NCBI GenBank assembly: GCA_001189345.1
Contig: LFKV01000008.1
Location: 1 to 64,000, forward strand
Length of the DNA stretch: 64,000 nt
Direction of reading: 5' to 3'
DNA from: Candidatus Paraburkholderia kirkii
GTDB lineage: Bacteria; Pseudomonadota; Gammaproteobacteria; Burkholderiales; Burkholderiaceae
How positions within the stretch are numbered: the stretch's first letter is position 1; each line of letters starts with the position of its first letter. The notes under the pieces were generated by a model. That model saw nothing but the letters and a program-made list of their open reading frames with translations, was not told the DNA's origin and ran no database searches. Below, piece after piece: positions 1 to 64,000 of this stretch. Both the position numbers and the translations under genes were made by a program.

Positions 1-74
1 CGGTCTTTCACGACGTCGATTCGCTCGGCTTGCGCATCGTGCCGTTTCGCGCGCCGTCCGAGCGCGAGGCCGCT
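1..74 (+). pseudogene. Coding fragment cut by an IS2-like end
   Basis: Frame 3 is open across the whole fragment and reads VFHDVDSLGLRIVPFRAPSE, with codon use like the neighbours, so this is probably part of a host gene. It is interrupted at position 75, where an IS2-like terminus begins. I do not recognise the family from 24 residues. Its other half is not visible in this window. Confidence 0.35.
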
Positions 75-450
75 TGGGCCGTCCCCCGCAAAAGCCGGAC
101 ATGCGGTGACGCTTAAATTATTTTGAGGTAGTCTTCTGCCTATGTTTAAGCCTAGTCATAACGTGGAACCTCTAGAAGTTCTGACCCAGCCGGAGCAGCG
201 CCGCCGGCGTTCGGTTGAAGAGAAACTAGCGATAGTTCGCGAGACTTTCGAGCCCGGTGCAACGGTCTCTGGCGTCGCTCGCCGACATCAAGTGAATGCC
301 AACCAAGTCTTCGGCTGGCGCAAGCTCTATCAGGACGAGAGCCTATCGGTGGTCTGCCGGGGTGTCGGCATCGAACCTACGAAGCAAGTGAAGCCGCCGG
401 CTGACGCTAGCCGAAGCAATGAAGCAGATGCTCGACGACACGGCGCTCGC
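75..450 (+). mobile_element. Remnant of an IS2-like (IS3 family) element, orfA end
   Basis: The first ~290 bases nearly match the orfA end of the IS2-type copy at 26424-27777, but in the opposite orientation. The terminus starts TGGGCCGTCCCCCGC, like the right end of the other copy. Homology is close up to about 360, diverges, then shares a short block around 408-430. The rest of the element, including the DDE domain, is missing because an IS630 element starts at the TA at 451-452. What remains cannot transpose by itself. Confidence 0.75.
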
Positions 451-474
451 TACTGCGCTGCGTTATTGAATTAG
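142..474 (+). pseudogene. Truncated IS3-family orfA
   Basis: This encodes the helix-turn-helix half of an IS2-type orfA. Residues [20 protein letters not shown] and [20 protein letters not shown] are the classic IS3 OrfA DNA-binding segment, and differ from the second copy in this window at only two or so positions. After LSVVCR (about base 360) the reading frame leaves the family. The stop at 474 lies inside the IS630 element. No catalytic domain follows, so it is a dead fragment. Confidence 0.7.
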
Positions 475-1566
475 CACCCTGTCTGTGTTCAGATACAGGT
501 CATGGGTCAAAATGAACCTGACAGATATCGAACGTGAGCAACTGTTGTCGGCGGCGCGCAGCCGAACGGTGCGTGCGGCGGACGTGCGACGCGCAAAGTT
601 GATCCTGATGCTCGAGGACGGCGAATCGCGCGACAGTATCATGCGCACACTGGGTTGCGATTCGCGCTTCATCGCACGCTGGTCGGGGCGCTTCCTCAGC
701 GAGCGACTAGCCGGCATGTACGCCCGGCACCGCGGGCGGGCGCCTACGCAGCCACCGGCCAAACTGGAAGCGCGGGTGCTCAAGTGCACCCTCAAGCACA
801 AACCCGCCGACGGTTCGACACACTGGAGTAGCTACAAGCTCGCAGCAGAACTCGGCGACGTATCGGTCTCGGCCGTGCAGCGCATCTGGCGCAAGCACGG
901 CATCAAGCCGCAGCAGTTGGAGCGGCACATGGTCTCCAACGACCCGGACTTCGAGACCAAGGCAGCCGACGTGATCGGGCTGTACCTGAACCCGCCGGCG
1001 CACGCAGCGGTGTTCTGCGTGGACGAGAAGACCGCGATCCAGGCACTCGATCGCAAGGACCGTATGCTGCCGCTGTCGCCCGGGCGCGCCGAGAGTCACG
1101 GCTTCGAGTACAAGCGCAACGGCACGCTCAGCCTGTTCGCGGCGTTCAATACTGCCACCGGCGAGGTGCTGGGCAAGACGGTGGCGCGCCACACCAGCGA
1201 GCAGTTCGTGGCCTTCCTGACCGACGTCGTCGCCAGCCAGCCCAAACGCCGGGAAATCCACGCGATCTGCGACAACGTCAGCAGCCATAAGACGCAGCGG
1301 GTTGCCGACTTCCTTGATGCGCAGCGCAACGTGCACCTGCACTTCACGCCGACCTACTCGTCGTGGCTCAACCAGGTGGAGAACTGGTTCTCGCGCATTC
1401 AGCGTGAAGTGATCGCTCGCGGCATCTTCACTTCGGTGAAGGATTGGGATCGCAAACTGATGCCGATACATCCGCGAACACAACAAGAACCCGAAACCGA
1501 TCAAGTGGAAATATGACGATCCTTCGCGCCGGATTCGACCAGTGCCAATTCAATGACGCAATGGAA
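453..1566 (+). mobile_element. IS630-family insertion sequence with TA target duplication
   Basis: The element is bounded by TA at 451-452 and TA at 1567-1568, the dinucleotide target that IS630 elements duplicate. Imperfect terminal inverted repeats begin 6 nt inside each TA: TGCGTTATTGAATTAGCAC from 459, and the complement of TGCGTCATTGAATTGGCAC ending at 1560. Length is about 1.1 kb with one transposase gene, as usual for the family. It sits between an IS2-like remnant and an integrase remnant, so the scar was built by nested insertions. Confidence 0.8.
512..1556 (+). pseudogene. IS630-family transposase, frameshifted near its C-terminus
   Basis: DDE transposase with an N-terminal helix-turn-helix region (RRAKLILMLEDGESRDSI) and a catalytic domain in which VFCVDEKTA, HAICDNVSSH and SWLNQVENWF supply the D, D and E. 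The start at 512 (MNLTDIER) fits the family. An extra C in the run at 1463-1464 shifts the frame after DRKLM. Removing it restores RYIREHNKNPKPIKWKYDDP and a stop at 1554-1556, about 347 residues, the normal length. All three catalytic residues precede the shift, but the conserved tail is lost, so activity is doubtful. Confidence 0.85.
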
Positions 1567-1568
1567 TA

Positions 1569-2145
1569 GCAACAAAACTAAGTCCTTCGTAGGGATGGCC
1601 TTCGGAATTCTTCGTGGCGGTTTGCGCACCGAGTTGGTGACAGCAGAAAAATCGATGCCTCCAGGGTGATAGCCACACTCAATGGCCCATCGGTAGAGAG
1701 CGACGATTGTCCTCATCCTGCTTCGCTTGGTCGCGCTGCTCAGAGGTAAAAGGGTAAGAGGACTGACCGCGCTTTCGAGAGCGACCGAATACGCGAGAAG
1801 GTCATCGCCGGTGACTTCGTTCCATGAAGGTGGACGAGGCAGAATTGCTTCGCCATTGGCGACTGCCGACTCGTGTGCTTCCTCGAGCGCCTCCAGATGA
1901 GCAACCTACTCAAACAGAGCTTCTACGTACGTTCGTACGGTGTTTTCGCGCTTTAGCAGGCCACCGGGCGTGAACCTGTCAAAAATGAAAAGAAGGACCT
2001 GTTCAATTACGTCCCCGAATCTGTCGACTAAAAACCGGAATCCGGCTGGAAGGGTGAAGGAGTGGCGTCCAATTGCCCATCGCGTCCTATCGAGAACGGT
2101 GTAGGGTGAGTCGCCACTCGTACCATCGACACCATATCGGCCCAT
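1569..2145 (-). pseudogene. Site-specific integrase remnant with a nonsense codon
   Basis: Reading leftward from an ATG at 2145, the frame gives an N-terminal region ending LKRENTVRTYVEALFE, then TAG at 1908-1906, then VAHLEALEEAHESAV and TIVALYRWAIECGYHPGG in the same frame. This resembles the SAM-like core-binding domain of tyrosine recombinases, where RENTVRTY-type and LYRWAIE-type segments are common. The TAG replaces what is most likely Trp (TGG). The gene is then cut by the IS630 element, so the catalytic Arg/His/Tyr domain is absent. Family assignment rests on a short domain and is moderate. Confidence 0.55.
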
Positions 2146-2370
2146 GTTGCGAAAAAGAGACAGTTAGGAAACCGCGGGCATCATCCGAAAACGTGTTCAC
2201 TATGGCCATAGAAATGGGGCCTCGGAGAACACAATAGGCGTTTGTGACCCGTCCGGTAAGCCCGTGAACAAGTCGAGCGCGCGTTTGATAAAACCACGAG
2301 GAAATGGCAGGGGCGCCAAGCAAAGCCAGTCCGAATGGGGGCCTCGCTTTGTTCAAGCCGAATCCACATA
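2146..2370. other. Mobile-DNA flank of unknown origin between integrase remnant and rnhA
   Basis: This stretch joins the integrase remnant to the point at about 2370 where rnhA similarity stops. It contains no recognisable gene. Open frames crossing it are continuations of frameshifted neighbours. It may be the end of an integrative element carrying the integrase, with the boundary inside rnhA, but I could not find a direct or inverted repeat that defines its end. Confidence 0.4.
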
Positions 2371-2434
2371 ATGCCTTTGCAGGCGCCGTCCGTGTAATGT
2401 CGATTATCTTGTTCGATGCGGATTCTTGAGTCAT
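2371..2434 (-). pseudogene. rnhA: 5' stub of RNase HI
   Basis: RNase HI removes the RNA strand of RNA-DNA hybrids. Only the first ~22 codons remain. The ATG overlaps the methyltransferase stop (TGATG, 2436-2432). MTQESASNK is followed, after a small shift, by YTDGACKG, the start of the RNase HI fold carrying the first catalytic Asp. Similarity ends abruptly after ACKG at about 2371, where foreign sequence begins. A base is also missing between GACATT and ACACGG compared with the family (TTTAC expected), so even the stub is out of frame. In this family the gene follows this methyltransferase, so it is a genuine locus that has been destroyed. Confidence 0.7.
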
Positions 2435-3259
2435 CAATGCTCGTTGCGAGTCTCGTTGCGCGTGTGCGGAGCGGCGACCGGCGCGAGCGCGGTTTTTTTT
2501 TTTCAGCTTGCGCGGACCGATGAGACGCATGCCGCGCACGCGCTTCACCGCCGTGATCATGTATGCCGCACCGAAGATGGGCCACCAGCGGTCGCCGGCG
2601 GCTTCCATGAATCGATAGCGCTGCAGCCACTTGTCCGTGACGAGCGGCGGACGATAGCAGCCGAAGCGTCCGCGTTCAAGATCGAAGCCGAGCAGCTTGA
2701 TCCAGTCCTTGATCCGCGTGAACGCGATCATCTCGTGCGCCGACAGCACGAACGGCCGCCCCGCCACCTTGCCGAGCGATTGCCGCGCGCCCCACAGGCT
2801 CAGCGAATTGAAGCCGAGGACGATCAGCTGGCCCTCCGGCACCAGCACGCGCTCGGCTTCGCGCAGAAGGCGGTGCGGGTCGGGCGAGAATTCCAGCGTG
2901 TGCGGCAGCACGAGCAGATCGACGCTCTGCGCTTCGAACGGCAGGTCGAGCAGATTGCACCACACCGTGCTGCGGCCGTCCGGCGCGCTCGCGGCGGGCA
3001 GCGCGCTCACGCCGGGCGTCGTCGCGCGCGGCGGCGCGTAGGGCGCGCTCGATGCGCTTTCCGCGTCGAGCACGAGCGCGCGGCCGATCATGCGGTTCTC
3101 CCGCAGCGCGTCGAGCTGCGGCATGCCGAGCTGAAGCGCGTGATAGCCGAAAATGTCGGACACCACGTGATCGAGCTGCGCCTGCTCCCAGTCGAGCACG
3201 TAGCGTCCGGGCGCCGAGCTCGTCCAGGTGGGCCAGTCTATAATCGCCCGGTCAGACAT
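2434..3259 (-). CDS. Class I SAM-dependent methyltransferase with a T11 homopolymer frameshift
   Basis: Methyltransferase-11-type protein of unknown substrate. Features seen are a degenerate SAM-binding region, the FEAQSVDLLVLPHTLEFSPD motif, LREAERVLVPEGQLIVLGFN and a C-terminal WWPIFGAAYMITAVKRVRG segment typical of the Burkholderia gene next to rnhA and gloB. The frame is broken at the 11-T run 2493-2503 (A11 on the coding strand). With ten A it would end KKKTALAPVAAPH...NEH with a stop at 2436-2434 overlapping the rnhA start, giving about 274 residues. As given, the frame runs on into the scar to 2087. The tract could be a phase-variable run, a fixed mutation or a sequencing error. The catalytic core lies upstream, so function may survive. 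Confidence 0.75.
3239..3244 (+). promoter_or_regulatory. Likely -10 box for gloB
   Basis: A perfect TATAAT lies 34-43 nt upstream of the two possible gloB start codons and inside the first codons of the divergent methyltransferase gene. No good -35 hexamer is visible at 16-18 nt spacing. Confidence 0.45.
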
Positions 3260-3277
3260 GTTCGGGTTGCCGCATAG

Positions 3278-4120
3278 ATGATCGCCATGGATTCGCTCAC
3301 CAAGAATTCGCCTGCTCGGAATGCGCTCGAATACGTGCCGGTTCCGGCGTTCGAGGACAACTGCATCTGGCTCGTGTCGGATTCGCGCGATGCGGTCGTG
3401 GTCGACCCGGGCGACGCCGCGCCGGTCGAAGCCTATCTCGCCAGGCGCGGTTGGCGGCTGACCGCTATTTTACTCACGCACCATCATCAGGACCACGTCG
3501 GCGGCGTGAAAGCGCTGCTCGACAGCCGGATGGCGGAGGGCGGGATTCCCGTCTACGGTCCGGCCGGCGAGCGTATCGAGCATCTGACCGAGCGCCTGTC
3601 GGGCGGCGATACCGTGCGCATCGCGCACCCGGCGATGGAACTCTCCGTGATCGACGTTCCTGGCCATACGGCCGGCCACATCGCGTACTTCCAGGCGGCC
3701 GGCGAGAACGGCACGCCGCACCTCTTCTGCGGCGACACGCTGTTCGCGAGCGGCTGCGGGCGTCTTTTCGAAGGCACGCCGCAGCAGATGCTCGGCTCGC
3801 TCGACGCGCTCGCGGCGCTGCCCGAGAATACGCAGGTTCACTGCGCGCACGAGTACACGCTCTCGAACATCCGTTTCGCGCGCGCATGCGAGCCGGACAA
3901 CGGCGCGCTCATTCGCTGGAACGACGCCGCGCAGGCACTGCGCGACGCCGGCAAGCCGACCTTGCCAACGACCATCGGCCACGAGAAAGCGGTGAATCCG
4001 TTCCTGCGCGCGCACGTGCCAGCCGTCCAGGCGGTGCTTTCGTCGAAGTTCGGCACGCCGGTTTCGGACCGGCTGGAAGCGTTCCGAATGATGCGAGGAT
4101 GGAAGGATAAGTTCCGCTAA
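3278..4120 (+). CDS. gloB: Hydroxyacylglutathione hydrolase (glyoxalase II)
   Basis: Metallo-beta-lactamase-fold enzyme that hydrolyses S-lactoylglutathione to lactate and glutathione, the second step of cytosolic methylglyoxal detoxification. The binuclear metal motif THHHQDHVGG is present at about residues 67-76, followed by DVPGHTAGH, FCGDTLFASGCGR and CAHEYTLSNIRFA, which supply the remaining metal and glutathione-contact residues. The C-terminal NPFLR segment is also typical. Length 280 is slightly above the usual ~260. A start at 3287 (MDSLTKN) is equally possible because neither ATG has a clear ribosome site. It is divergent from the methyltransferase with only 18 nt between start codons. 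Intact. Confidence 0.93.
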   Translation: MIAMDSLTKNSPARNALEYVPVPAFEDNCIWLVSDSRDAVVVDPGDAAPVEAYLARRGWRLTAILLTHHHQDHVGGVKALLDSRMAEGGIPVYGPAGERIEHLTERLSGGDTVRIAHPAMELSVIDVPGHTAGHIAYFQAAGENGTPHLFCGDTLFASGCGRLFEGTPQQMLGSLDALAALPENTQVHCAHEYTLSNIRFARACEPDNGALIRWNDAAQALRDAGKPTLPTTIGHEKAVNPFLRAHVPAVQAVLSSKFGTPVSDRLEAFRMMRGWKDKFR

Positions 4121-4285
4121 CCCAGGCCCTTTTGTGGTCAACTTAATCTGAAACGTTGGAAACGCTGTTAGATGACGGATTTTGCAGGGGTTTTGCGTGC
4201 ATTCTTATTGACGTCTTAAGTGCGGTTCCGTACCATCGGCTGCAAATTTCCAAGCATCATCATCTTTTGGAAGCCGAGACGTTCC

Positions 4286-5941
4286 ATGCGACTAATTCTT
4301 AGCGCGCTGTCCGTCCTGATGCTCGCCGCTTGCGCGAGCCAGGGACCGACAGCGTCCGATCCTCTTTCAGCCTCAACCCCTTCCACCGCCTCGCAGCAAA
4401 AGCAGCAACAAGTCGCCGACACGATTCGCCGCACTGCAGCAGCCAAGGAAACCATCGACGTCGACAAGACGTCCGTCACCTCGCTCGCGGGTTCGGCCGA
4501 TCTCTGGAGCCGCATCCGCGGTGGCTTCCAGATCCCGGATCTGCAAAGCGATCTCGTCGACATGCAGGTCAACTGGTATGCGCAGCGTCCGGATTACGTC
4601 GAGCGCATGACGACGCGTTCGCAGAAATACCTGTATCATATCGTCGAGGAACTGGAGCAGCGCCACATGCCGACGGAGCTGGCGCTCCTGCCGTTCATCG
4701 AGTCGGCGTTCAACCCGCAGGCGCTGTCCGTGGCGAAGGCCGCGGGCATGTGGCAATTCGTGCCGGGCACCGGCCGCGACTACAACCTTAAGCAGAACAT
4801 GTGGCAGGACGAGCGCCGCGACGTGCTCGCCTCCACGAGCGCCGCGCTCGACTATCTCTCGCGCCTGCACGACATGTTCGGCGACTGGCATCTCGCGCTC
4901 GCCGCGTACAACTGGGGCGAGGGCAACGTGCAGCGCGCGGTCGCGCGCAACGAGGTGGCGGGTCTGCCGACCGACTACGAAAGCCTGCGCATGCCCAACG
5001 AGACGCGCAACTACGTGCCGAAGCTGCAGGCGGTGAAGAACATCATCAGTAATCCGCAGATGTATGGGCTCACGCTGCCGGACATTCCGAACCACCCGTA
5101 TTTCGTGACGGTCACGACCGCGCGCGACATCGACGTGACGATGGCCGCCAAGCTCGCCGGCATGAGCGTGGAGGAGTTCCGCTCGCTCAACCCGTCGTTC
5201 TCGAAGCCGGTGATTCTCGGGGCGACCAATCCGCAGATCCTGCTGCCGTTCGACAATGCGGCTTCGTTCCAGCGCAATCTGTCGTCGTACACGGGCGCGC
5301 TCTCGTCCTGGACCACCTATACTGTGACCGAGCGCGCGCACCCGGCCGCGATCGCCGAGAAGATCGGCGTCGACGCGGACACGCTGATGTCCGTCAACCG
5401 CATCCCCGCGGGCATGCGCCTGAAGCCCGGCTCGACGATCGTCGTGCCGCGCACGGACGACGACGAAGACATCAGCGCGGACGTCGCCGAAAACGCGATG
5501 CTCGCCGTCGAGCGCGACGTGCCCGACACGCGCAGGCTGGTGATTCGCGTGCGCCGCAAGCAGGCGATCACAACGCTGGCGGACCGCTACAATGTGTCGG
5601 TGGCGCAGGTGCGCGCCTGGAACCGCACGCGCGGCGACCTGGTCATGCCGGGGCAGGTGGTCGTCCTACATGTGCGTGCCGTACGGTCGTCCGGTGCCGG
5701 CCGAGCCGGGGCCGATGCGCGTGGGACGGTGGCGGCGTCGAGCCGTTCGTCGGGCGGCGTGTCGAAGATCGGCACGCGGGTGCCGGAGACGAAATCGTCG
5801 CGCGGCGGCAAGGTGCCCGCACGTGCGCCGGCGAAAGCGACGAAGGTGTCGGCATCGACGGCGTCGCACGCCGCCAAGCCCGCCGCAGCGGCAAAGACCG
5901 CGAAGCCGGTCGCCAGCGCGAAGAGCGGCAAGAAGAAGTAA
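4286..5941 (+). CDS. mltD: Membrane-bound lytic murein transglycosylase D
   Basis: Outer-membrane lipoprotein that cleaves peptidoglycan glycan strands with 1,6-anhydro product formation. The start at 4286 gives a lipoprotein signal, MRLILSALSVLMLAACAS, with lipobox LAAC. The SLT catalytic domain follows: ALLPFIESAFNPQA with catalytic Glu, GMWQFVPGTGRDY, and LALAAYNWGEGNV. Two LysM-like cell-wall-binding segments lie at YTVTERAHPAAIAEKIGVD and VRRKQAITTLADRYNVSVAQ. The tail (about 100 residues) is low complexity, rich in Lys, Ala and Ser. An upstream ATG at 4220 exists, but the signal peptide argues for 4286. Intact at 551 residues. Confidence 0.9.
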   Translation: MRLILSALSVLMLAACASQGPTASDPLSASTPSTASQQKQQQVADTIRRTAAAKETIDVDKTSVTSLAGSADLWSRIRGGFQIPDLQSDLVDMQVNWYAQRPDYVERMTTRSQKYLYHIVEELEQRHMPTELALLPFIESAFNPQALSVAKAAGMWQFVPGTGRDYNLKQNMWQDERRDVLASTSAALDYLSRLHDMFGDWHLALAAYNWGEGNVQRAVARNEVAGLPTDYESLRMPNETRNYVPKLQAVKNIISNPQMYGLTLPDIPNHPYFVTVTTARDIDVTMAAKLAGMSVEEFRSLNPSFSKPVILGATNPQILLPFDNAASFQRNLSSYTGALSSWTTYTVTERAHPAAIAEKIGVDADTLMSVNRIPAGMRLKPGSTIVVPRTDDDEDISADVAENAMLAVERDVPDTRRLVIRVRRKQAITTLADRYNVSVAQVRAWNRTRGDLVMPGQVVVLHVRAVRSSGAGRAGADARGTVAASSRSSGGVSKIGTRVPETKSSRGGKVPARAPAKATKVSASTASHAAKPAAAAKTAKPVASAKSGKKK

Positions 5942-5971
5942 GGCAAAGGCTTTTGCCGAAGCCCTATCCCA

Positions 5972-6002
5972 CGCTGTCACCAAGGTGACGGCGTTTTCGT
6001 TT
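5972..6002 (+). terminator. Rho-independent terminator after mltD
   Basis: CGCTGTCACC pairs with GGTGACGGCG across an AA loop (one G-T pair), followed by TTTTCGTTT. Placed 31 nt after the mltD stop. Confidence 0.75.
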
Positions 6003-6056
6003 GGCGGCCCCGTTAAACTGGCGTTCCAGAAAAAATCGAAGAATCGCCCGCCTCGC

Positions 6057-7291
6057 ATGCCGTCTTCCGTTCGCCTCCGCGTCTTTTGCCTGTTCGCCGC
6101 CGGTTACTCCGTCTCGTACGTGTTTCGCGGCGTCAATCTCGGCTTCGCGCCGCTCATCACGCACGATCTCGGCCTGTCCGCGGCCGATCTCGGCCTTCTG
6201 ACCTCGCTCTATTTCATCGGTTTTGCCGCGGCGTAGATTCCCGTCGGCGTGCTGCTCGATCACTTCGGCCCGCGGCGCGTCACCGCCGCCATGCTTGTAT
6301 TCGCGGCGGTGGGCATCTGGATCTTCGGCGTCGCGCGCGGACTCGGCGGGCTGATGATCGGCCGGCTTCTGATCGGTGTTGGCGTGTCGGTGTGCCTGAG
6401 CGCGGCCTTCAAGGCGTCGGCGCAGTATTTCCCCCTCGCGCGCCTGCCGCTCGTGAACGGATTCACGATGGCCGTCGGCGGCCTGGGAGGCGTCGTGGTC
6501 GGATCGCCGCTCGCGTCGCTCCTGCACCTCGCGACTTGGCGGCAGGTGTGTATCGGACTGGGCGCGTTCACGCTGGCCTTTGCCGCGGCGATCGTGCTCT
6601 TCGCGCCGCGCAAGGCCGAGACCGACGCGCACCATCGGGCGGACGTCATCACGCAGTTCAAGGGCACCTGGCACATCCTGAAGAGAGCGGCGTGTTCTGG
6701 AAGATCGCGTCGTTTTCCGTCGTCTCGCAGGGCGTCTTTTTTGCGATGCAGCCGCTCTTGATCAGGCCCTATTTGCTCGACGCGATGGACCTCTCGTCCG
6801 CACACGCCGCGGCGCTCGTCTCGGTGCTCGGCTTCGCGATGATGTCCGGTTGCATCCGGCTTCGGCGCGGCGTCTCGGTGTACGCGTTCTGCGGAGTCGG
6901 CATGGGCTTGTTCGTCGTCACGCAGGTTCTGATGGTGCTGCGCGTGTCTTTGCCGCCGTCCGTGCTGCTCGCAGCGTACGGCGTATTCGGCGGCACCGGC
7001 ATTCTGAGCTACGCGGTGGCCGCGGAGTACTTTCCGTCCCACAAGATCGGGCGTGTCCGCACCACGCTGACGCTCGTGATCTTCCTGCTGATCTTCGGTT
7101 TCCAGGTGGGCGTCGGCGCGATGCTTTCGCTGTGGCCGTCCGAAGGCGGGCGCTACCCGGCGACGGCGCATCTGACGGTGTGGATCGCGCTTATCGCGCT
7201 GCAAGTCGCGAGCGCGATCTGGTATTTCTTGCCGAGCCGCGCGCTGCACAAGCGTGATCGCGATCACGAAGCGGAGCGCGTCCCCTCCTGA
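6057..7291 (+). pseudogene. MFS transporter, broken by a stop and a frameshift
   Basis: Twelve-helix major facilitator superfamily permease of unknown substrate. The N-terminus (GYSVSYVFRGVNLGFAPLI) and the motif-A region VGVLLDHFGPRRV are clear. TAG at 6234-6236 interrupts SLYFIGFAAA-IPVGVLL, where Gln (CAG) is expected. A base is missing at about 6681-6687, so the frame moves from HILK to SGVFWKIASFSVV; restoring it gives roughly 411 residues. Near 6850-6880 (AMMSGCIRLRRGVS) the cytoplasmic loop between helices also appears about ten residues short, which may be a third lesion. Located between mltD and carA, as in related genomes. Confidence 0.85.
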
Positions 7292-7642
7292 ACGAAGGCG
7301 CGCAACACGTAGGCGGCTTGCAAGCGGAAGTTTCCCAAATCTGGCGAATGCGCGGGTTTCAAGCTATACTCCGAAAGTCTAAGCATATCAACCCGCACCC
7401 TAGCGCTTACCTCCCATTCACCGTCGTTCGCTGCGCCAGTCAGCGCGCGCCGCACGTCGCCAATCGTCCGTTTCGATACCCCGTTTGCCCTGCGCAAGCG
7501 AGCCGGTCCGAATAGCGATGCGCGCCTCGCGAGCCGCCGCGGTCACTGCGCGAAGGAAACCCGCGTTCTTCGAGCGGCGGGAGGCCAAGCCTGAATTTCG
7601 GACAGACAGGTCGGTAACAGGGTGTCCCCCAAGGAGCCTCCC
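7292..7642 (+). promoter_or_regulatory. carAB upstream region with candidate promoter
   Basis: This 350-nt gap has no convincing gene. TATACT at 7365-7370 is a good -10 box; the -35 position (TGGCGA, 7342-7347) is weak. If used, it gives a leader of roughly 270 nt before carA. AAGGAG at 7631-7636 is the carA ribosome site. I saw no clear attenuator or riboswitch. Confidence 0.4.
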
Positions 7643-8785
7643 GTGTTGCCGTCATTTTCCCCCGCACTTTTCGCACTTGCCGACGGCACGGTCTTTCGTG
7701 GTCAATCGATCGGCGCGCCCGGTTCGACGATCGGCGAGGTGGTGTTCAACACCGCCATCACCGGCTATCAGGAAATCCTGACGGATCCGAGCTACGCCCG
7801 CCAGATCGTCACGCTGACCTATCCGCACATCGGCAATGTCGGCGTCAATGCCGAAGACGTCGAAGCCACCAAAGTCCATGCCGCCGGTCTCATCATCCGC
7901 GACCTGCCGATTCTCGCCTCCAACTTCCGTTCCGAGCAGACGCTCTCCGATTACCTGAAGGCGCAAAACGTCGTCGCGATCGCGGGCATCGATACACGCA
8001 AGCTCACCCGCATCCTGCGCGACAAGGGCGCTCAGAACGGCTGTATCCTCGCCGGCAGCGACGACGAAGCGAAGGCGCTCGGCCTCGCGCGCTCGTTCCC
8101 GGGTCTCGCGGGCATGGACCTCGCGAAGGTCGTGTCGACCGAGAAGACCTATGAGTGGACGCAGACCGAATGGCGTCTCGGCCGCGGCTACGGCAAGCAG
8201 GAAGCGCCGAAGTTCCGCGTCGTCGCGTTCGATTACGGCGTGAAGTACAACATCCTGCGCATGTTCGCCGAGCGCGGCTGCCATGTCACCGTGCTGCCCG
8301 CGCAGGCGACCGCCGCCGACGCGCTCGCGCTCAATCCGGACGGCATCTTCCTGTCGAACGGCCCCGGCGATCCGGAACCGTGCGACTACGCGATCAAGGC
8401 GACGCGCGAGTTCATCGAGCGCGGCATTTCGACCTTCGGCATTTGCCTCGGCCACCAGATCATGGGTCTCGCCGTCGGCGCCAAGACCATGAAGATGAAG
8501 ACCGGCCATCACGGCGCAAACCATCCGGTGAAGGACATGGACGACGGCCGCGTGGTGATCACGTCGCAGAACCACGGCTTCGCGGTGGACGCTTCGACGC
8601 TGCCCGCCAACGCGAAGGTCACGCACGTCTCGCTCTTCGACGGCACGCTGCAAGGCTTCGCGCTCACGGACAAGCCGGCGTTCTGCTTTCAGGGCCACCC
8701 CGAGGCATCGCCCGGCCCGCGCGACATCGCGTATCTGTTCGACCGCTTCATCAAGCTGATGGAGACGGCGAAGGTCGCCGCTTGA
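7643..8785 (+). CDS. carA: Carbamoyl-phosphate synthase small subunit
   Basis: Glutaminase subunit that releases ammonia from glutamine and channels it to CarB for carbamoyl phosphate, used for pyrimidines and arginine. The GTG start at 7643 is chosen because AAGGAG lies 6 nt upstream and gives [15 protein letters not shown], the usual N-terminus. The N-terminal CPSase domain has [20 protein letters not shown]. The class I amidotransferase domain has the nucleophile Cys in [10 protein letters not shown] (about residue 267), ITSQNHGF, and catalytic His/Glu in [12 protein letters not shown]. 380 residues, intact. It is 42 nt upstream of carB in one operon. Confidence 0.95.
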
Positions 8786-8827
8786 AAGCAAAGAACGGAA
8801 CACAGCACATATACATCGAGAGCAGTT

Positions 8828-12100: not shown

Positions 12101-12116
12101 GGCTTCGATTACTGGT

Positions 12117-12140: not shown

Positions 12141-12146
12141 CACGAG

Positions 12147-51609: not shown

Positions 51610-52437
51610 TCAGTCGCCTCGCAGCAGCTCGTTCAGGCCGACCTTCGCGCGCGTCTTGGCATCGACCTTCTTGACGATCACCGCGCAGTACAGATTGTGC
51701 GTACCGTCCTTCGACGGCAGGTTGCCCGCCACCACGACCGAGCCCGCCGGAATGCGGCCGTAGCTCACTTCGCCGGTTTCGCGGTCGTAGATCTTGGTCG
51801 ACTGGCCGAGATACACGCCCATCGAGATGACCGAGTTCTTCTCGACGATCACGCCTTCCACCACTTCCGAGCGCGCGCCGATGAAGCAGTTGTCCTCGAT
51901 GATGACCGGATTCGCCTGCAGCGGCTCCAGCACGCCGCCGATGCCCACGCCGCCCGACAGATGCACGTTCTTGCCGATCTGCGCGCACGAGCCGACGGTG
52001 GCCCACGTGTCGACCATCGTGCCTTCGTCGACGTAAGCGCCGATGTTGGTGTACGACGGCATCAGCACGACGTTCTTCGCGATGAACGAGCCGCGCCGCG
52101 CGATGGCCGGCGGCACCACGCGGAAGCCGCCCGCCGCGAAATCCTCGGCCGTGTAGTTCGCGAACTTCGAGGGCACCTTGTCGTAGAACTGGGAGTAGCC
52201 GCCGGCGGGCATCGGCGCGTTGTCTTCGAGGCGGAACGACAGCAGCACGGCCTTCTTGAGCCACTGATTCACGACCCACTCGCCGTCGCGCTTCTCGGCG
52301 ACGCGCATCTGGCCACGGTCGAGCTGCTCGATCGCGTGCGCGACGGCTTCGCGGACTTCGGCGGGCGCGGCCTTGGCGGACAGCTCGGCGTGGTTTTCCC
52401 AGGCGGTATCGATGATGCTCTGAGTTTGTTGCGACAT
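51610..52437 (-). CDS. dapD: Tetrahydrodipicolinate N-succinyltransferase
   Basis: Succinylates tetrahydrodipicolinate in the succinylase route to diaminopimelate. Start ATG 52437 ([20 protein letters not shown]). The C-terminal half is a left-handed beta-helix of hexapeptide repeats: [40 protein letters not shown] and [20 protein letters not shown]. 275 residues, intact. Confidence 0.96.
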
Positions 52438-52472
52438 AGTGATATCAAGGATGGAAAGATGGACTGGCACGC

Positions 52473-53614: not shown

Positions 53615-53836
53615 GGCGTGACCGGTAAGCAGTGAGCGATGCGCGCGAGGCGCGGAGCGCCTGCCGGAGCAGCATCGGAAGACATCGAACGGACGCGAAA
53701 CAAGCAGCGCGCGCCCCCGCGCCCCAAGCGGGCGGCGGCGTGCGGCACGAAGGACGAAAGCGCGAATGAAGAAGCTCATGAGCCACGAAATGGGCGCGAT
53801 GGCGGAGACGAGGACGACCCGGAACGGAGTGCCGCA

Positions 53837-54821
53837 ATGACCCGCGGTCTGCACAACGCGTGGCCAACGCTCGCGATCATGCTGGGCGCGTCGGTGTGGG
53901 GCCTCGTCTGGTACCCGATGCGCATGCTCGCCGCGATGGGCTTCACGGGCACCGCCGCCAGTGCGACCACCAGCGGCGCCGCATGCCTCTTCGTGCTGCT
54001 GGCGAAGCGCCCGATCAGCACGCTTTCCTGGCACTGGCTGCTCGTCGCGCTCGGCGCGGCGGCGGGCGTGACCAGCATCGGCTTCGTGTGGGGCGCGATC
54101 CACGGCCAGGTGATGCGCGTGCTGCTGCTCTTCTATCTGACCCCCGCCTGGACCGCGCTCTTCGCGCACTTCATCCTGAGAGACCGCCTGACGCGCGCCG
54201 ACGCCGCGCTGTCGCTCCTCTCGCTCGCGGGCGCCGTGACGATGCTCTGGTCGCCCGAGCTTGGCATGCCGCTGCCCGCCGATTTCGCCGAATGGGCGGG
54301 TCTCATGGGCGGCATGGGTTTCGCGATGAGCAACGTGCTCATCGTCAGGATCACGCGCACGCTGCCCGCGATGAAACCCGAGATGCGCACCGCCGTGATC
54401 TTCGGCGGCGCGGCGCTCGTCGCCTCGCTCGCCGCGCTGCTCGAGCCGATGCCCGCGCCTCCCGCCGCCGCCCAGCTTCCCGCCGTGGCGCTCATCATGA
54501 TCGGTCTCGGCATCGTGCTCGCGGCGAACAACGTGATCGTGCAAGTCGGGCTCGCGCGCGTGCCGGCCAATCGCGCGTCGATCATCATGCTCTTCGAAAC
54601 TCGTGGTCACGGCGCTGTCGTCGTGGCTCTTCGCGGGCGAGGTGCCCGGCCCGCGCGAATGGGCGGGCGGCGCGTGCATCGTCGCCGCGTGCGTGCTGTC
54701 GGCGTGGGCGCACCGCACGCGCGCGTCGCGTGCATCGCGTGCGCCGGCCGCGGCCGAACCGCCCGACGTCGCCGGACGCGAGCCGGAAAGCAAAAAGAAA
54801 TCGACTCGCGCGATGGTATGA
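53837..54821 (+). pseudogene. EamA/DMT-family transporter, frameshifted
   Basis: Drug/metabolite transporter superfamily permease with ten expected helices; substrate unknown. Start ATG 53837 (MTRGLHNAWPTLAIMLGASV). Two EamA repeats are visible, e.g. LLLFYLTPAWTALFAHFILR (end of the first) and ASIIMLFE (second). An extra A at 54597-54600 shifts the frame after IIMLFE. The other frame continues LVVTALSSWLFAGEVPGPRE and GGACIVAACVLSAWAHRTRA to a stop at 54821. About 327 residues when restored. The shift removes the last two helices. Confidence 0.85.
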
Positions 54822-54951
54822 TGGTGCCCGCTGCGCCGGACCCCTCGCACAACGCACAATGATGCGCGGCGTGGCCGAACGCGATCGACGGGCCGCGCTG
54901 CGACCTGTCCGCTATTCATCCTCCGTCACCATTCCAAACAGCGATATCGCC

Positions 54952-57900
54952 GTGCGGCTGACCTCGATAAAACTCGCTGGCTTCAAGTCCTTCGTCGATC
55001 CCACGCATTTTCAAGTCCCCGGCCAGCTGGTCGGCGTCGTCGGGCCGAACGGCTGTGGCAAGTCCAACATCATCGATGCCGTGCGCTGGGTGCTCGGCGA
55101 ATCGCGCGCCTCGGAGCTGCGCGGCGAATCGATGCAGGACGTGATCTTCAACGGATCGACGGCGCGCAAGCCCGGCAGCCGGGCAAGCGTCGAACTGATC
55201 TTCGATAACGCCGAAGGCCGTGCTGCCGGCCAATGGAGCAGCTACGGCGAAATCGCCGTGAAGCGCGTGCTCACGCGCGACGGCACCTCCAGCTACTACA
55301 TCAACAATCTGCCCGCGCGCCGCCGCGACATCCAGGACATCTTCCTCGGCACGGGCCTCGGCCCGCGCGCGTACGCGATCATCGGGCAGGGCATGATCGC
55401 GCGCATCATCGAGGCGAAGCCGGAAGAGCTGCGCGTGTTTCTCGAGGAAGCCGCGGGCGTGTCGAAGTACAAGGAGCGCCGCTGCGAGACCGAGAACCGT
55501 CTGCACGACACGCGCGAGAACCTGACGCGCGTCGAGGACATCGTCCGCGAGCTCTCCGCGAATCTCGAGAAGCTCGAGGCGCAGGCGGTGGTTGCGACCC
55601 GATACAAGGAACTGCAGGCCGAGGGGGAGGAGAAGCAGCGCCTGCTGTGGCTTCTGCGCAAGCGGGAAGCGGGCAGCGAAGCGGAGCGCCAGCAACGCGC
55701 GATCCGCGAGGCGCAGGTCGAGCTCGAAGCGCAGACCGCGCGTCTGCGCGAAGTCGAGGCGCACCTGGAGACGCTGCGCGTCGCGCACTACAGCGCGAGC
55801 GATGCGATGCAGGGCGCGCAGGGCGCGCTCTACGAAGCCAATGCCGAAGTGAGCCGGCTGGAGGCGGAGATCCGCTTCATCGTCGAGTCGTGCAATCGCG
55901 TGCAGGCGCAGATCGCCGCGCTCACGGCGCAGCGCGAGCAGTGGCAGGCGCAGGCGCAGAAGGCGCGCGACGAGATCGACAGCGCCACCGAGGCGCTCGC
56001 CGAAGGCGAGGAGAAAGCCGCGATCGCGCAAGAGAACGCCGCCGCGAAGCACGACGCGCTGCCCGCGCTCGAAGCCCGCTGGCGCGATGCTCAGGCGCAA
56101 CTGAACGAGGAGCGCGCGGGCATCGCGCGCGCGGAGCAGGCGCTGAAGCTCGAGGTGGCGCATCAGCGCAACGCCGATCAGCAGCTTCAGCAACTCCAGC
56201 AGCGCCAGGAGCGTCTGAAGACCGAAGCGAGCGGCCTCGATGCACCCGACGAAGCGCAGCTCGAGGCGCTGCGCATGCAGCTCGCCGAAAACGAAGAAAT
56301 TCTCGCCGAAGCGCAGGCGCGTCTTGCCGATGCGCAGGAAACCGTGCCGCGTCTCGATGCCGAGCGCCGCGCCGCGCAGGAACGCGTGCAGAAGGAAAGC
56401 GCGCAGATCCATCAGCTTGAGGCGCGCCTCGCCGCGCTCAAGGCATTGCAGGAGAGCGTGCAGACCGAAGGCAAGATCCAGCCGTGGCTCGACAGGCACG
56501 AGCTCGGCGCGCTGCCGCGCCTGTGGAAGAAGCTGCACGTCGAACCCGGCTGGGAAGCGATGCTCGAATCCGTGCTGCGCGAGCGTCTTGCGGCGCTCGA
56601 GGTATCGAATCTCGACTGGATCAAAGCCTTCGCCACCGATGCGCCGCCCGCGAAGCTCGCGTTCTATTCGCCGCCCGTCGCGGGCAAGCCAGTCGAGACG
56701 CCGCAAGGCCTGCGCTCGCTGCTCTCGCTGGTGCGCATCGACGATCCGGGCCTGCGCGCGGTGCTCAACGAATGGCTCGGCACGACCTTCGTCGCCGACG
56801 ACATCGCGCAGGCGCTGGCCTCGCGCAGCCAGTTGCCGGAAGGCGCCGCGTTCGTCGTGAAGGCGGGGCACGTCGTGACGCGCGTCGGCGTGCAACTCTA
56901 CGCGTCGGATTCCGAGCAGTCGGGCATGCTCGCGCGCGCCCAGGAAATCGAGAATCTCGCGACGCAGGTGCGCACGCAGGCGCTGCTCTCCGACGAAGCG
57001 AAAGCGCACGCCGTGCGCGCCGACGCGGCCCACACTCAGGGCTCACAGGCGCTCGCGGAAGCGCGCGCCGCCGCCGAGCGCGCGACGCAGCGCGTCCACG
57101 CGCTGCAGTTGGACGTGCTGAAGCTCGCGCAGGCGCACGAGCGGTACACGCAACGCAACACGCAGATCGGCGAGGAGCTGGAGGAGATCGCCGCCCAGAT
57201 CGAGGAGCAGCGTGCGCTGCGCGCGGAATCGGAAGCCGCGTTCGAGCGCCACGATGCCGAGATCGCGCAGCTGCAGGCGCGTTTCGAGGACAACCAGCTC
57301 GCGTTCGAGGCGCTCGACGAGCAGCTCACGAACGCGCGCCACGAACTGCGCGAACTGGAGCGCGCCGCGAGCGACGCGAGTTTCGCGGTGCGCGGGCTCG
57401 CCGCGAAGATCGACGAGTACCGGCGCAACATCGACACGGCGCACGAGCAGAGCGAGCGCATCGCGGGCACGCTGGAAGACGCGCGCGCCGAGCTCGAGAC
57501 CATCAACGAGCAGACCGCGCAGACCAGCCTGCAGGACGCGCTCGAAGTGCGCGCGGCGCGCGAGGAGTCGCTGCATGCGGCGCGCGTCGAATTGGACGAT
57601 CTCACCGCGCGCCTGTGTCAGGCCGACGAGCAGCGTCTGGTGGCCGAGCGCTCGCTGCAGCCGCTGCGCGACCGCATCAACGAATTGCAGTTGAAGGAGC
57701 AGGCCGCGCGCATCAGCGGGGAGCAGTTCGTCGAGCAGTTGCAGGCGGCGGGCGTGGACGAGGCCGAGCTCGCCGAGAAACTCGCGCCGGACATGAAGCC
57801 GTCGTATCTGCAGGGCGAAGTCACGCGCCTGAACAACGCGATCAACGCGCTCGGGCCCGTCAACATGGCGGCGCTCGAAGAGCTGGCGGCGGCGACCGAG

Positions 57901-58467
57901 CGCAAGCACTTCCTCGACGCGCAGTCGGCGGACCTGAATGACGCCATCGGCACGCTGGAAGACGCGATCCAGAAAATCGACCAGGAAACGCGCGCCCTGC
58001 TGCAAGGCACGTTCGACGAGGTGAACCGCCACTTCGGCGAGCTGTTCCCGCGTCTTTTCGGCGGCGGCCAGGCGAAGCTCATCATGACCGGCGACGAGAT
58101 CTTCGACGCTGGCGTGCAGGTGATGGCGCAGCCTCCCGGCAAGAAGAACTCGACGATTCACCTGCTTTCGGGCGGAGAAAAGGCGCTCACCGCAACCGCG
58201 CTCGTGTTCGCGATGTTCCGGCTGAATCCCGCGCCGTTCTGTCTGCTGGACGAAGTGGACGCGCCGCTCGACGACGCGAACACCGAGCGCTTCGCGAACC
58301 TCGTGCGCGCGATGGCGGCCAAGACGCAGTTCCTGTTCATCTCGCACAACAAGATCGCGATGGAAATGGCGCAGCAGCTGATCGGCGTGACGATGCAGGA
58401 GCAGGGCGTGTCGCGCATCGTGGCGGTGGATATGGAATCGGCGGCGGGTTTCGCGCAGAACGGCTGA
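54952..58467 (+). CDS. smc: Chromosome segregation ATPase SMC
   Basis: Condensin-type ATPase that organises and segregates the chromosome. GTG at 54952 gives MRLTSIKLAGFKSFVDPTHF. Walker A GVVGPNGCGKSN (about 30-40), DIFLGTGLGPRAYAIIGQG, then ~400 residues of Glu/Ala/Gln-rich coiled coil, the hinge (about 480-640) around DWIKAFATDAPPAKLAFYSP, a second coiled coil, signature LSGGEKALTATALVFAMFR (about 1070) and Walker B FCLLDEVDAPLDDAN. 1171 residues with no lesion over 3.5 kb, notable next to damaged neighbours. zipA follows. Confidence 0.95.
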   Translation: MRLTSIKLAGFKSFVDPTHFQVPGQLVGVVGPNGCGKSNIIDAVRWVLGESRASELRGESMQDVIFNGSTARKPGSRASVELIFDNAEGRAAGQWSSYGEIAVKRVLTRDGTSSYYINNLPARRRDIQDIFLGTGLGPRAYAIIGQGMIARIIEAKPEELRVFLEEAAGVSKYKERRCETENRLHDTRENLTRVEDIVRELSANLEKLEAQAVVATRYKELQAEGEEKQRLLWLLRKREAGSEAERQQRAIREAQVELEAQTARLREVEAHLETLRVAHYSASDAMQGAQGALYEANAEVSRLEAEIRFIVESCNRVQAQIAALTAQREQWQAQAQKARDEIDSATEALAEGEEKAAIAQENAAAKHDALPALEARWRDAQAQLNEERAGIARAEQALKLEVAHQRNADQQLQQLQQRQERLKTEASGLDAPDEAQLEALRMQLAENEEILAEAQARLADAQETVPRLDAERRAAQERVQKESAQIHQLEARLAALKALQESVQTEGKIQPWLDRHELGALPRLWKKLHVEPGWEAMLESVLRERLAALEVSNLDWIKAFATDAPPAKLAFYSPPVAGKPVETPQGLRSLLSLVRIDDPGLRAVLNEWLGTTFVADDIAQALASRSQLPEGAAFVVKAGHVVTRVGVQLYASDSEQSGMLARAQEIENLATQVRTQALLSDEAKAHAVRADAAHTQGSQALAEARAAAERATQRVHALQLDVLKLAQAHERYTQRNTQIGEELEEIAAQIEEQRALRAESEAAFERHDAEIAQLQARFEDNQLAFEALDEQLTNARHELRELERAASDASFAVRGLAAKIDEYRRNIDTAHEQSERIAGTLEDARAELETINEQTAQTSLQDALEVRAAREESLHAARVELDDLTARLCQADEQRLVAERSLQPLRDRINELQLKEQAARISGEQFVEQLQAAGVDEAELAEKLAPDMKPSYLQGEVTRLNNAINALGPVNMAALEELAAATERKHFLDAQSADLNDAIGTLEDAIQKIDQETRALLQGTFDEVNRHFGELFPRLFGGGQAKLIMTGDEIFDAGVQVMAQPPGKKNSTIHLLSGGEKALTATALVFAMFRLNPAPFCLLDEVDAPLDDANTERFANLVRAMAAKTQFLFISHNKIAMEMAQQLIGVTMQEQGVSRIVAVDMESAAGFAQNG

Positions 58468-58644
58468 CGCATCGTCGCCAATCGCGGAGTTTTGAACGAG
58501 CGGCAGGCCGGACCGTGTCCGGTCATTGCGCCAAGACGCGGAGTGGTGCGCATCGGCCAGGCGGCGGCGAGAAGCCGGAACGCGGCGCGATGCGTGCGAC
58601 AGATCGCGCGGCGCTTCGTAACTTAAAAGAATGATGGAGCCTGC

Positions 58645-59898
58645 ATGGACGAGTTGACACTCGGTTTGATTGGAGCCGGAGCCGTGGTGGTGGGCGGCGT
58701 GGTCGTGTACAACGCGTGGCAGAGCGCGAAGGTGCGGCGCAGGATGCCGCGCCCGATGCCCGACGAAGCGGCCGATGCGCTCGTGCGCCAGGAGACCGAC
58801 GACGAGCAGCCGTTCATCGAGCCCGTGCGCCAGCCGCGCCGCGAGCCGGAAGCGGGAGACGGCGGCGATCAGCCGCGCGACACGCGCGTGGAGCCGAGCT
58901 TCGGCGGCGCGAGTTCGGCGACCACGGCGCCGCCGCCGGTCGCGCCCGCCGATACCGCCGTCGATCTTCAGGCCGAGGCGACGTCCGCCAACGGCCTCTC
59001 CGAGGAAGCCGAGAGCCGCGGCGAGGACGAGCGCACCGAACCGGTGATGCCCGCCGCCGCCGCCATTTCGTCGGCGCCGCCGGCCGTGGTGGATCGCCGC
59101 ATCGACTGCGTCGTGCCGATCCGCCTCGCCGCGCCCGTCGCGGGCGACCGCGTGATTCCGCTCGCGCAGCGTCTGCGTCGCGCGGGCACGAAACCCGTCA
59201 CGATCGAAGGCAAGGCCGAAGGCCAGAGCACGTGGGAATTGCCGCGCAACGGCGTGCGTTACGAAGAGCTGCGCGCGGCCGCGCAGCTGGCGAACCGTAG
59301 CGGTCCGCTGAACGAGCTCGAATTCTCGGAGTTCGTGACCGGCGTGCAGCGTCTTGCCGACGCCATCGACGGGTCGCCCGAATGCCCCGACATGATGGAA
59401 ACCGTCGGCATGGCGCGCGAGCTCGATGCGTTCGCCGCGCAGTGCGACGCGCAGCTCTCGATCAACATTCTCTCCGACGGTGCGCCGTGGTCGGCGAATT
59501 ACGTGCAGGCGGTGGCGTCGCAGGACGGCCTCCTGCTCTCGCGCGACGGCACGCGCTTCGTGAAGCTCGACGCGAAGCAGAATCCCGTGTTCATGCTCCA
59601 GTTCGGCGACACCAACTTCCTGCGCGACGACCTCACGTACAAGGGCGGCCGGATGATCACGCTGGTGCTCGACGTGCCCTTCGCCGACGAGGACATTCTT
59701 CCGTTCCGGCTGATGTGCGACTACGCGAAGTCGCTGTCGGAGCGCATCGGCGCGCGCGTCGTCGACGATCAGCGCCGGCCGCTGCCGGAATCCGCGCTGC
59801 TCGCCATCGAAAAGCAGCTGATGACGCTTTATGCGAAGCTGGAGCAGGCGAGCATTCCGGCCGGCTCGCCGGCGACGCGGCGGCTCTTCAGCCAGTAG
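58645..59898 (+). CDS. zipA: Cell division protein ZipA
   Basis: Bitopic inner-membrane protein that tethers FtsZ. N-terminal membrane anchor LTLGLIGAGAVVVGGVVVYN, then an Arg-rich stop-transfer segment, a long acidic/Pro-rich linker (about 45-150) and a C-terminal FtsZ-binding ZipA domain (about 270-400: FAAQCDAQLSINILSDGAPW, VFMLQFGDTNFLRDDLTY and LDVPFADEDILPFRLMCDYA). 417 residues, intact. smc-zipA-ligA order is conserved. Confidence 0.9.
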   Translation: MDELTLGLIGAGAVVVGGVVVYNAWQSAKVRRRMPRPMPDEAADALVRQETDDEQPFIEPVRQPRREPEAGDGGDQPRDTRVEPSFGGASSATTAPPPVAPADTAVDLQAEATSANGLSEEAESRGEDERTEPVMPAAAAISSAPPAVVDRRIDCVVPIRLAAPVAGDRVIPLAQRLRRAGTKPVTIEGKAEGQSTWELPRNGVRYEELRAAAQLANRSGPLNELEFSEFVTGVQRLADAIDGSPECPDMMETVGMARELDAFAAQCDAQLSINILSDGAPWSANYVQAVASQDGLLLSRDGTRFVKLDAKQNPVFMLQFGDTNFLRDDLTYKGGRMITLVLDVPFADEDILPFRLMCDYAKSLSERIGARVVDDQRRPLPESALLAIEKQLMTLYAKLEQASIPAGSPATRRLFSQ

Positions 59899-59946
59899 AC
59901 GCGGTGCGCGCGAGATTTCCAAACGCGCGCTTGCTGCCAGAGGATC

Positions 59947-59972
59947 GCGCCCCATAAGGGGCGCTTTCTTTT
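59947..59972 (+). terminator. Rho-independent terminator after zipA
   Basis: GCGCCCC and GGGGCGC flank an ATAA loop and are followed by TTTCTTTT. Confidence 0.85.
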
Positions 59973-60035
59973 GCGTGCGCGCTGCCGCACTCGCGCCCGC
60001 ACTCAGGCCATTCGGCCGATGCCATGATTTACTGA

Positions 60036-62700
<2,665 letters not shown>

Positions 62701-62735
62701 CGCCGTGCGTATCGGACCGCAAGAAGATCGGGCAG

Positions 62736-62768
62736 AAGGCCGCTTCGCGGGGAGCGGCCTTTTCTTTA
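62736..62768 (+). terminator. Rho-independent terminator after def
   Basis: AAGGCCGCT and AGCGGCCTT flank an 8-nt loop and are followed by TTCTTT. Confidence 0.8.
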
Positions 62769-63002
62769 CGCCGGCGTTTTCGGATTGCCGCTGATATCGG
62801 GCTGGCGGAACAGGGCGACGTGCTCCGGATTCGCGGACGCCTGCAGGCGTCCGTCCGGCAGGCGGGCGATCACCATTTCGCCGATGCCGGGGCTCATCAC
62901 GACGACTTCGTCGCGCAGGGCGAGCAGGGCTTCGAGCCGTCGTCGGCCGCTCACGATCTCAAGACCGGTTCCCGTCTCACGAACGATGATCTCAACTGAC
63001 AT
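62766..63002 (-). CDS. Small protein of unknown function, ParB-like segment
   Basis: 78 residues from ATG 63002: MSVEIIVRETGTGLEIVSGR, RRLEALLALRDEVVVMSPGI and EMVIARLPDGRLQASANPEH. I do not recognise it with certainty. The segment LEIVSGRRRLEALLAL resembles the ParB N-terminal motif (xxIxxGxRRxxAxxxL), but the protein is far too short for ParB and lacks its other domains. It is convergent with def and sits over the def terminator. Amino acid composition and codon use fit a real gene. The 240 nt upstream to 63244 hold no gene. Confidence 0.5.
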   Translation of the reverse strand: MSVEIIVRETGTGLEIVSGRRRLEALLALRDEVVVMSPGIGEMVIARLPDGRLQASANPEHVALFRQPDISGNPKTPA

Positions 63003-63244
63003 GGCGATTTTCCCTCGATGCCGTTCAATGCTGGTCCTGCCGCCGTCCACCTGATCGGCGCGGCTGCCTGACCGGTGTAACGGATCGGTGATTCATTTTC
63101 TTTAGCCAGAAACCGGCCAAAAATGAAAAGGCACGACCGGGGCTGCATCGTACCGATTTCCTTGCTGGCGCGTCGTATTTTTGCGACGCAGCGGTGCCCG
63201 GCGCGTACGTTCGATCGGACGTGCGCGCGGGCATTCCGGTTTGT

Positions 63245-63995
63245 TCAGAAGCTCTCGTTCGGTCCTAGATAACGCCACTGCCCGGGCGGCAGCGCGCCGA
63301 GCGTGATACGCCCCATGCGGATGCGTTTGAGGCCGACGACTTCCAGTCCGACTAGCTCGCACATGCGGCGAATCTGGCGCTTCTTGCCTTCGCGCAGCAC
63401 GGAGCGAAGCTGCTCGCCGTTCTGCCAGCTCACCTGCGCCGTCTTGAGCGGCACGCCGTCAAGCTCGAGCCCGTGACGCAGCAGCGCGAGCTTTTCCGCG
63501 GGCAGGTGCCGATCGAAGTCGACGGTGTGCTCGCCGAAGCGCACGCGCACGAGGTACTCCTTGTCGACTTCCGAGTGGCCACCGATCAGCTGCTTGGCGA
63601 TGCGGCCGTCCTGCGTGAGCACGAGCAGGCCCGTCGAATCGATGTCGAGGCGGCCCGCGGGCGCGAGCGTGCGCAGATGGCCCGGCGAGAAACGGATGCC
63701 CGAGCGGTCCTCTTCCCAGTGGTTGGCCGGGTTGACGAGCGTCACGGCCGGCTCGTAGCCGTCTTCGGCCTGACCAGACACGAAGCCCACCGGCTTGTGC
63801 AGAAAGATCGTGACCCGTTGCGATTGCGCGGAGTGCGCGGCGGGCAGGATATCGATGTTCTGCGTCGGACGGATGCGCGTGCCGAGCGTGTCGATGACTT
63901 CGCCGTCGACGAGCCCTCAGCCTTTCTCGATCCCATTCATCGGCTTCGCGGCGCGAGCAAAGGCCGAGTTCGGACATGACTTTCGACAGGCGCAC
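63245..63995 (-). pseudogene. RsuA/RluB-family pseudouridine synthase with insertion and stop
   Basis: Converts a uridine in rRNA to pseudouridine. GTG at 63995 begins MRLSKVMSELGLCSRREADE, the S4 domain. An extra G (CCC at 63931-63933 region) shifts the frame at EW-IEKG, and in the restored frame TGA at 63919-63917 replaces an expected Trp (TGG), followed by [20 protein letters not shown]. The catalytic domain is intact in the third segment: [20 protein letters not shown] with the catalytic Asp, and [19 protein letters not shown]. Restored length about 249. The gene could begin beyond the window end, but the S4 start looks complete. RluB and RluF are both possible. Confidence 0.8.
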
Positions 63996-64000
63996 GAGAC

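Follow-up and report, generated by a model that had tools for sequence, protein, structure and literature searches.

Psychotria leaf-nodule symbionts, among them Candidatus Burkholderia (Caballeronia) kirkii, have genomes near 4 Mb. Genome erosion in leaf-nodule bacteria is a known, published phenomenon, and one report describes it as massive in Psychotria symbionts and names pKIR01, a plasmid of Ca. B. kirkii, as the carrier of C7-cyclitol genes (PMC8599487). Here we examined gene decay in a 64,000-nucleotide stretch of bacterial DNA (contig C8, positions 1-64000, called the window throughout) from a genome assembled in 48 contigs. With a probability of about 0.9, we read the window as a chromosome 1 segment from a Caballeronia that is restricted to a host; this bacterium is most probably a leaf-nodule symbiont of Rubiaceae, of the type represented by 'Candidatus Burkholderia kirkii'. 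A first-pass annotation, made from the letters of the window, had pointed to host-restricted reduction in leaf-nodule Caballeronia, and that reading is strongly supported by the tree, the genome size, the burst of insertion sequences, the raised dN and the cyclitol-type clusters presented below.

Broken genes in the window

Genes were called in the relative G011 by a codon-usage score, and 49 G011 genes in two blocks, each matched by a full-length orthologue (reciprocal coverage of 85%) in three or more of the genomes G001, G012, G005, and G004, were used as anchors. A gene was scored as broken when its longest stop-free piece was shorter than 85% of the protein. Nine of the 49 anchors were broken in the window alone, where rluB is cut by the window end; when the next 36 kb of the contig were included, with rows at the sequence edge set aside first, rluB was found to be broken too, giving 10/49. 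As a control, four relatives were each scored with anchors defined without that relative, and 0/49, 1/49, 0/49, and 0/49 genes were broken (1/196 altogether; Fisher p = 4e-7 for the window vs. the relatives). The gene decay in the window is thus real. Four further genes (a methyltransferase gene adjoining gloB, the DUF1853 gene, thiE, and thiM) were frameshifted only near the 3' end, so that 14 genes carry some lesion. The affected genes, apart from thiE, are:

2437..3199, minus strand: methyltransferase, frameshift at the 3' end only
6057..7270, plus strand: MFS transporter, broken by a frameshift and a stop
13279..13816, minus strand: yhbY (named by domain), broken by a frameshift
29589..30900, minus strand: aceA (isocitrate lyase), broken by a frameshift and a stop
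35911..36792, plus strand: DUF1853 protein, shift at the 3' end only
38370..39174, minus strand: thiM, frameshift at the 3' end only
43778..44724, minus strand: CoA-transferase family III, broken by a frameshift and a stop
44849..46776, minus strand: yheS-type ABC-F protein, broken by two frameshifts (in the G011 gene, model PRK10636, which we take to be YheS, matches the N-terminal 377 aa)
46948..47436, plus strand: gpx, broken by a stop
52476..53614, minus strand: dapC (DapC_gpp match in the G011 gene), broken by a frameshift, a stop, and an in-frame deletion
53879..54818, plus strand: EamA transporter, broken by a frameshift
62168..62697, plus strand: putative peptide deformylase (def) paralogue, broken by a frameshift
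63248..64000, minus strand: RluB-type pseudouridine synthase (named by domain), broken by a frameshift and a stop, extending past the window end

The lesions are small frameshifts and stops. The frameshifts sit in runs of 1-4 bases, the exception being the 3'-end shift of the methyltransferase gene, which lies in a long single-base run. An in-frame stop is present in 6/10 broken genes, and 6/10 contain either a frameshift together with a stop or two frameshifts. The first-pass annotation had listed at least 15 otherwise family-like genes as broken; interrupted genes were indeed present, but the count is 10 clear cases plus four affected at the 3' end. All its named examples were recovered: the MFS and EamA transporters, the def paralogue, gpx, the yheS-type ABC-F gene, aceA, yhbY, and the RluB-type synthase. 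The simple coding density of open reading frames (ORFs), a measure that counts fragments and so underestimates decay, was 0.805 in the window, 0.81-0.88 in the relatives, and 0.40-0.87 in ten other stretches of this genome.

Relatives, insertion sequences, and cyclitol-type genes

The genome measures 3.91 Mb at 97.3% completeness. Of the twelve congeners found, 11 are at least 97% complete and measure 5.5-10.1 Mb; the remaining one, G003, is 60% complete and measures 2.4 Mb. Most congeners have genomes about twice as large as this one. In a tree of carB, the 13 rows (the window and the 12 congeners) formed one clade with 100/100 support, and named Burkholderia, Paraburkholderia, and Pandoraea fell outside it. 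Over 20 kb, the congener G001 was 100% identical to plasmid NC_021295.1 of Caballeronia insecticola; this match identifies the genus as Caballeronia, and the carB clade places the window inside it. A place among free-living strains with intact, low-divergence orthologues, which would have spoken against the first-pass reading, was not found, the large-genome relatives compared being about 85-90% identical to the window at the DNA level over the two blocks, A and B, described below.

A tree over 17.5 kb of block A showed that the window and G003 are sisters (100/100), and a grouping of the window with G011 and G004 was rejected in the same test. No lesion common to the window and G003 was seen in the G003 stretch, which covers window positions 6667-24279; yhbY is intact there, and the part of the MFS gene that is present is open. 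The DUF4149 gene is broken in G003, so that for this gene and yhbY the situation is the reverse of that in the window. The 60%-complete G003 assembly gave no long match to block B.

The architecture of the window is as follows:

75..470, plus strand: partial IS3-family copy with an HTH_Tnp_1 ORF, cut by the IS630 copy (blastn match to the IS3 element at 26424-27777, inverted, 93%)
450..1571, plus strand: IS630-family element (DDE_3 domain) with an intact transposase ORF at 485-1516
2372..26423, plus strand: block A, which blastn aligns collinearly with chromosome 1 of the relatives (in reverse orientation to G011 C1, about 2.035-2.061 Mb)
26424..27777, minus strand: IS3-family element (rve domains) placed precisely where blocks A and B meet, the block edges being the edges of the insertion sequence (IS)
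27778..64000, plus strand: block B, likewise collinear with chromosome 1 of the relatives (about 1.182-1.218 Mb on G011 C1)

In G011, the two blocks lie about 0.85 Mb apart and in opposite orientation. The IS3-filled junction fits recombination between IS copies that probably rearranged the chromosome; no flank duplication was visible at this element when the junction ends were read from the sequence. At 20-40 kb of contig C2, three segments that adjoin in this genome map to about 3.01, 3.06, and 2.91 Mb on G011 chromosome 1, a further rearrangement. The IS630 copy and block A are separated by an interval of about 0.8 kb (1560-2372), for which neither the fetched stretches of relatives nor plasmids gave a match; two ORFs within it gave no Pfam hit.

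Genome-wide, rve domain hits numbered at least 85 (a lower bound, as 150 of the 184 candidates of this genome were scored) vs. 0-11 in 12 other genomes, eight of them congeners, and DDE_3 hits numbered 104 vs. 0-4 in the same 12. Together these make at least 189 transposase-domain hits, obtained by searches with differing E-value limits and with a domain, rve, that is shared by further IS families besides IS3. In the fetched parts of the genome, the five additional IS630 copies that reach 1.1 kb or more were at least 99.7% identical to the window copy, which makes this burst a young one. The genome thus displays IS proliferation together with rearrangement. IS insertion as the cause of the window lesions was rejected, since the pieces of each broken gene adjoin and the copies of the two families scanned, IS630 and IS3, lie elsewhere. 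The earlier statement that IS elements occupy core loci does not hold as worded: the IS630 and IS3 copies are located at the block edges, and no broken gene is split by one.

On the 75-kb contig C43 there are two genes for sugar-phosphate cyclases that score far under the aroB cut-off (215 vs. 305 bits). The first is adjoined by a trehalose-phosphate-synthase-like gene and an aminotransferase gene, the second by an aminotransferase gene, and plasmid genes annotated as sedoheptulose 7-phosphate cyclase share 44% identity with the second. Among 12 other genomes searched, 11 had only one aroB-strength hit, and G003 had only the weaker, cyclitol-synthase-like type. Family and neighbours suggest the label EEVS for the two C43 cyclases, and clusters of C7-cyclitol synthase type are thus found in this genome. 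Both clusters (C43, 20000-59999) lie among IS630 and IS3 copies. On contig C41 there is a second cyclase hit of aroB strength whose open frame is just 189 aa long; the other, on contig C5, has 375 aa.

The explanation that comes closest to competing is that the bacterium is host-restricted with an insect or a fungus as host and forms no leaf nodule. In the available portions of the sources, a beetle-associated Burkholderia is described as reduced, with many pseudogenes and 159 transposase ORFs (PMC7042692), and endofungal Mycetohabitans as having a raised pseudogene and transposon content (PMC12696581). The placement within Caballeronia and the two cyclitol-type clusters, however, match Psychotria symbionts, and we regard another host as improbable.

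Age and extent of the decay

The ten broken genes of the window had an omega (dN/dS) of 0.173 (0.141-0.219) on the window branch vs. 0.112 (0.081-0.150) on the G011 branch; the value of 0.173 suggests that they have spent little time unconstrained and that the window lesions are young. For the intact genes, omega was 0.115 (0.096-0.139) on the window branch vs. 0.086 (0.068-0.109) on the G011 branch, and the dN ratio of the two branches was 1.72 (1.50-1.97). Relaxed purifying selection is thus indicated by the dN ratio, though the omega intervals overlap.

We sampled further contigs in the same way. In stretches matching the 3.07-Mb replicon of G011, 4/29 genes were broken in the next 36 kb of the window's contig (two anchors common to the window left out), 1/17 on contig C2 (two edge rows dropped), and 2/10 on contig C3, which with the window makes 17/105 broken and 88/105 intact. 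Contig C1 had 13/17 broken genes (one edge row and two absent rows dropped), and contig C4 had 6/16 (one absent row dropped; for the first 8 kb of C4 there is also a match to a further replicon). The 1.49-Mb replicon of G011, which C1 and C4 match, is taken for the second chromosome. The second-chromosome samples thus had 19/33 broken genes vs. 17/105 on chromosome 1 (Fisher p = 8e-6; the genes within one stretch are not independent, and the second chromosome was sampled by two stretches).

The broken second-chromosome genes showed an omega of 0.261 (0.23-0.31; 20 rows, edge row included), and the broken chromosome-1 genes on C2 and C3 an omega of 0.312 (0.22-0.48; five rows, edge rows included). 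The latter value suggests that old lesions are present on chromosome 1 too, which argues against a clean order of replicons. The results showed that: (i) this is a reduced genome with many pseudogenes (3.91 Mb, 36/138 sampled genes broken), and (ii) it is not one in which little DNA has been lost and all lesions are young, as it is about half the size of most congeners and omega of the broken genes is 0.26 in the second-chromosome samples vs. 0.17 in the window. The earlier claim that the lesions are recent therefore holds, by omega, for the ten window genes, but in some other samples the decay looks older; the accompanying description as a first phase of reduction is not supported and has to be toned down, given the genome size and the heavily broken, older-looking second-chromosome genes.

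Ordinary strain-level gene loss in a free-living Caballeronia would agree with the mostly intact state of sampled chromosome 1 and with the lack of A+T drift. It would leave the half-size genome, the 189 or more transposase-domain hits, the heavy decay in the second-chromosome samples, and a sister that is another small genome unaccounted for, and we consider it highly unlikely. That assembly or sequencing errors made most lesions is equally hard to credit and was rejected: the assembly is a draft and one 3'-end shift lies in a long single-base run, but the run context of the other frameshifts, the in-frame stops, the double lesions (yheS with its two frameshifts among them), the lesion-free state of carB, smc, ftsH, and ligA, long genes that would catch most random errors, and the single broken gene among 196 in relatives of which some are drafts too, all contradict it.

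We therefore return to the host-restricted, leaf-nodule Caballeronia. In the proposed course of events, purifying selection would have weakened along the branch while the IS630 and IS3 families multiplied; the chromosome was probably rearranged when IS copies recombined with one another; selection would no longer remove the small frameshifts and stops arising in dispensable genes; and core genes would stay intact, as cells losing them die. We infer the host, an obligate and vertically inherited life, and, as cause, a small effective population size. Several points weigh against this interpretation. The intact-gene omega intervals of the window and G011 branches overlap. A+T drift was looked for and not found, the G+C content at third codon positions (GC3) being 0.867 vs. 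0.843 and 0.833 in two relatives. The size of G003 comes from an assembly at 60% completeness, the IS3 junction may be an artefact of assembly across a repeat, the activity of the C43 cyclases could be that of EEVS or a related one, and host and lifestyle are read from the sequence.

Surviving genes and comparison with known systems

The intact genes include greA, tsaB, alr, and radA, as well as those below, which are listed together with a joined thiE-thiD frame:

7739..12097, plus strand: carA-carB, intact
14107..19399, plus strand: rlmE-ftsH-folP-glmM, intact (rlmE, folP, and glmM named from domain and order)
19622..26404, plus strand: pstSCAB-phoU-phoB-phoR set, intact (single open frames, 100% coverage; families from the G011 orthologues)
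36863..38335, minus strand: thiE without its last residues running into a complete thiD, one 490-aa open frame
49994..51127, minus strand: dapE, intact
51613..52437, minus strand: dapD, intact
54952..62168, plus strand: smc-zipA-ligA, intact

None of the 11 genes on a core list, which was compiled after the lesions had been seen, is among the ten broken genes (p = 0.011, length-weighted draws), as survival alone predicts. The first-pass annotation had described the replication, division, cell-wall, and phosphate set as intact and the decay as function-biased. Core genes do survive, but dapC, a gene for a lysine and cell-wall precursor that the annotation had overlooked, is broken near the intact dapD and dapE, and a weak function bias holds only as survival of core genes.

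E. coli ArgD can perform the DapC step. An intact argD scoring above its curated cut-off is present on contig C1, and in the available part of PMC5814848 a gene table gives argD as acetylornithine/N-succinyldiaminopimelate aminotransferase. The 490-aa thiE-thiD frame lies in a thiamine salvage cluster and scores 199 bits for thiE (cut-off 145) and 327 bits for the HMP-P kinase (cut-off 205). The two genes, which are in different frames in G011, were joined by a frameshift near the thiE end, and a working fusion appears likelier than a dead gene. It is conceivable, though doubtful, that chromosome-1 lesions are tolerated where promiscuity or fusion covers the loss, with ArgD replacing the lost dapC and a working ThiE-ThiD fusion, and that the replicons decay in turn, the second chromosome having gone first and chromosome 1 being eroded mostly at present. 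Genome reduction is seen here at a well-preserved intermediate stage, with intact relatives against which every lesion can be compared, and two questions become testable: are secondary replicons the first to fall, and do losses track enzyme redundancy (dapC/ArgD) above broad function classes?

As far as the available portions of the reports go, the following likenesses and differences emerge. The cyclitol-type genes are found on a 75-kb contig here and on a 140-kb plasmid in Ca. B. kirkii. Burkholderia sp. Lv-StB of Lagria beetles is alike in its decay, with pseudogenes at 45% of ORFs beside the 159 transposase ORFs (PMC7042692), but it has lost G+C (58.7% vs. 67.9%), whereas the coding DNA of the window has not. 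Endofungal Mycetohabitans, in which the genome has shrunk to about 3 Mb and transposons and pseudogenes have increased, has 6.4-10% of its coding sequences (CDS) pseudogenized, and other symbiotic Burkholderia sensu lato have 3.2-5.9% (PMC12696581); here, by a different rule, 17/105 and 19/33 sampled genes were broken. Paraburkholderia bonniea and P. hayleyella, which live with amoebae, are likewise host-associated and have 4.1-Mb genomes, but these are described in that source as stable, without an excess of IS elements or pseudogenes (PMC9601139).

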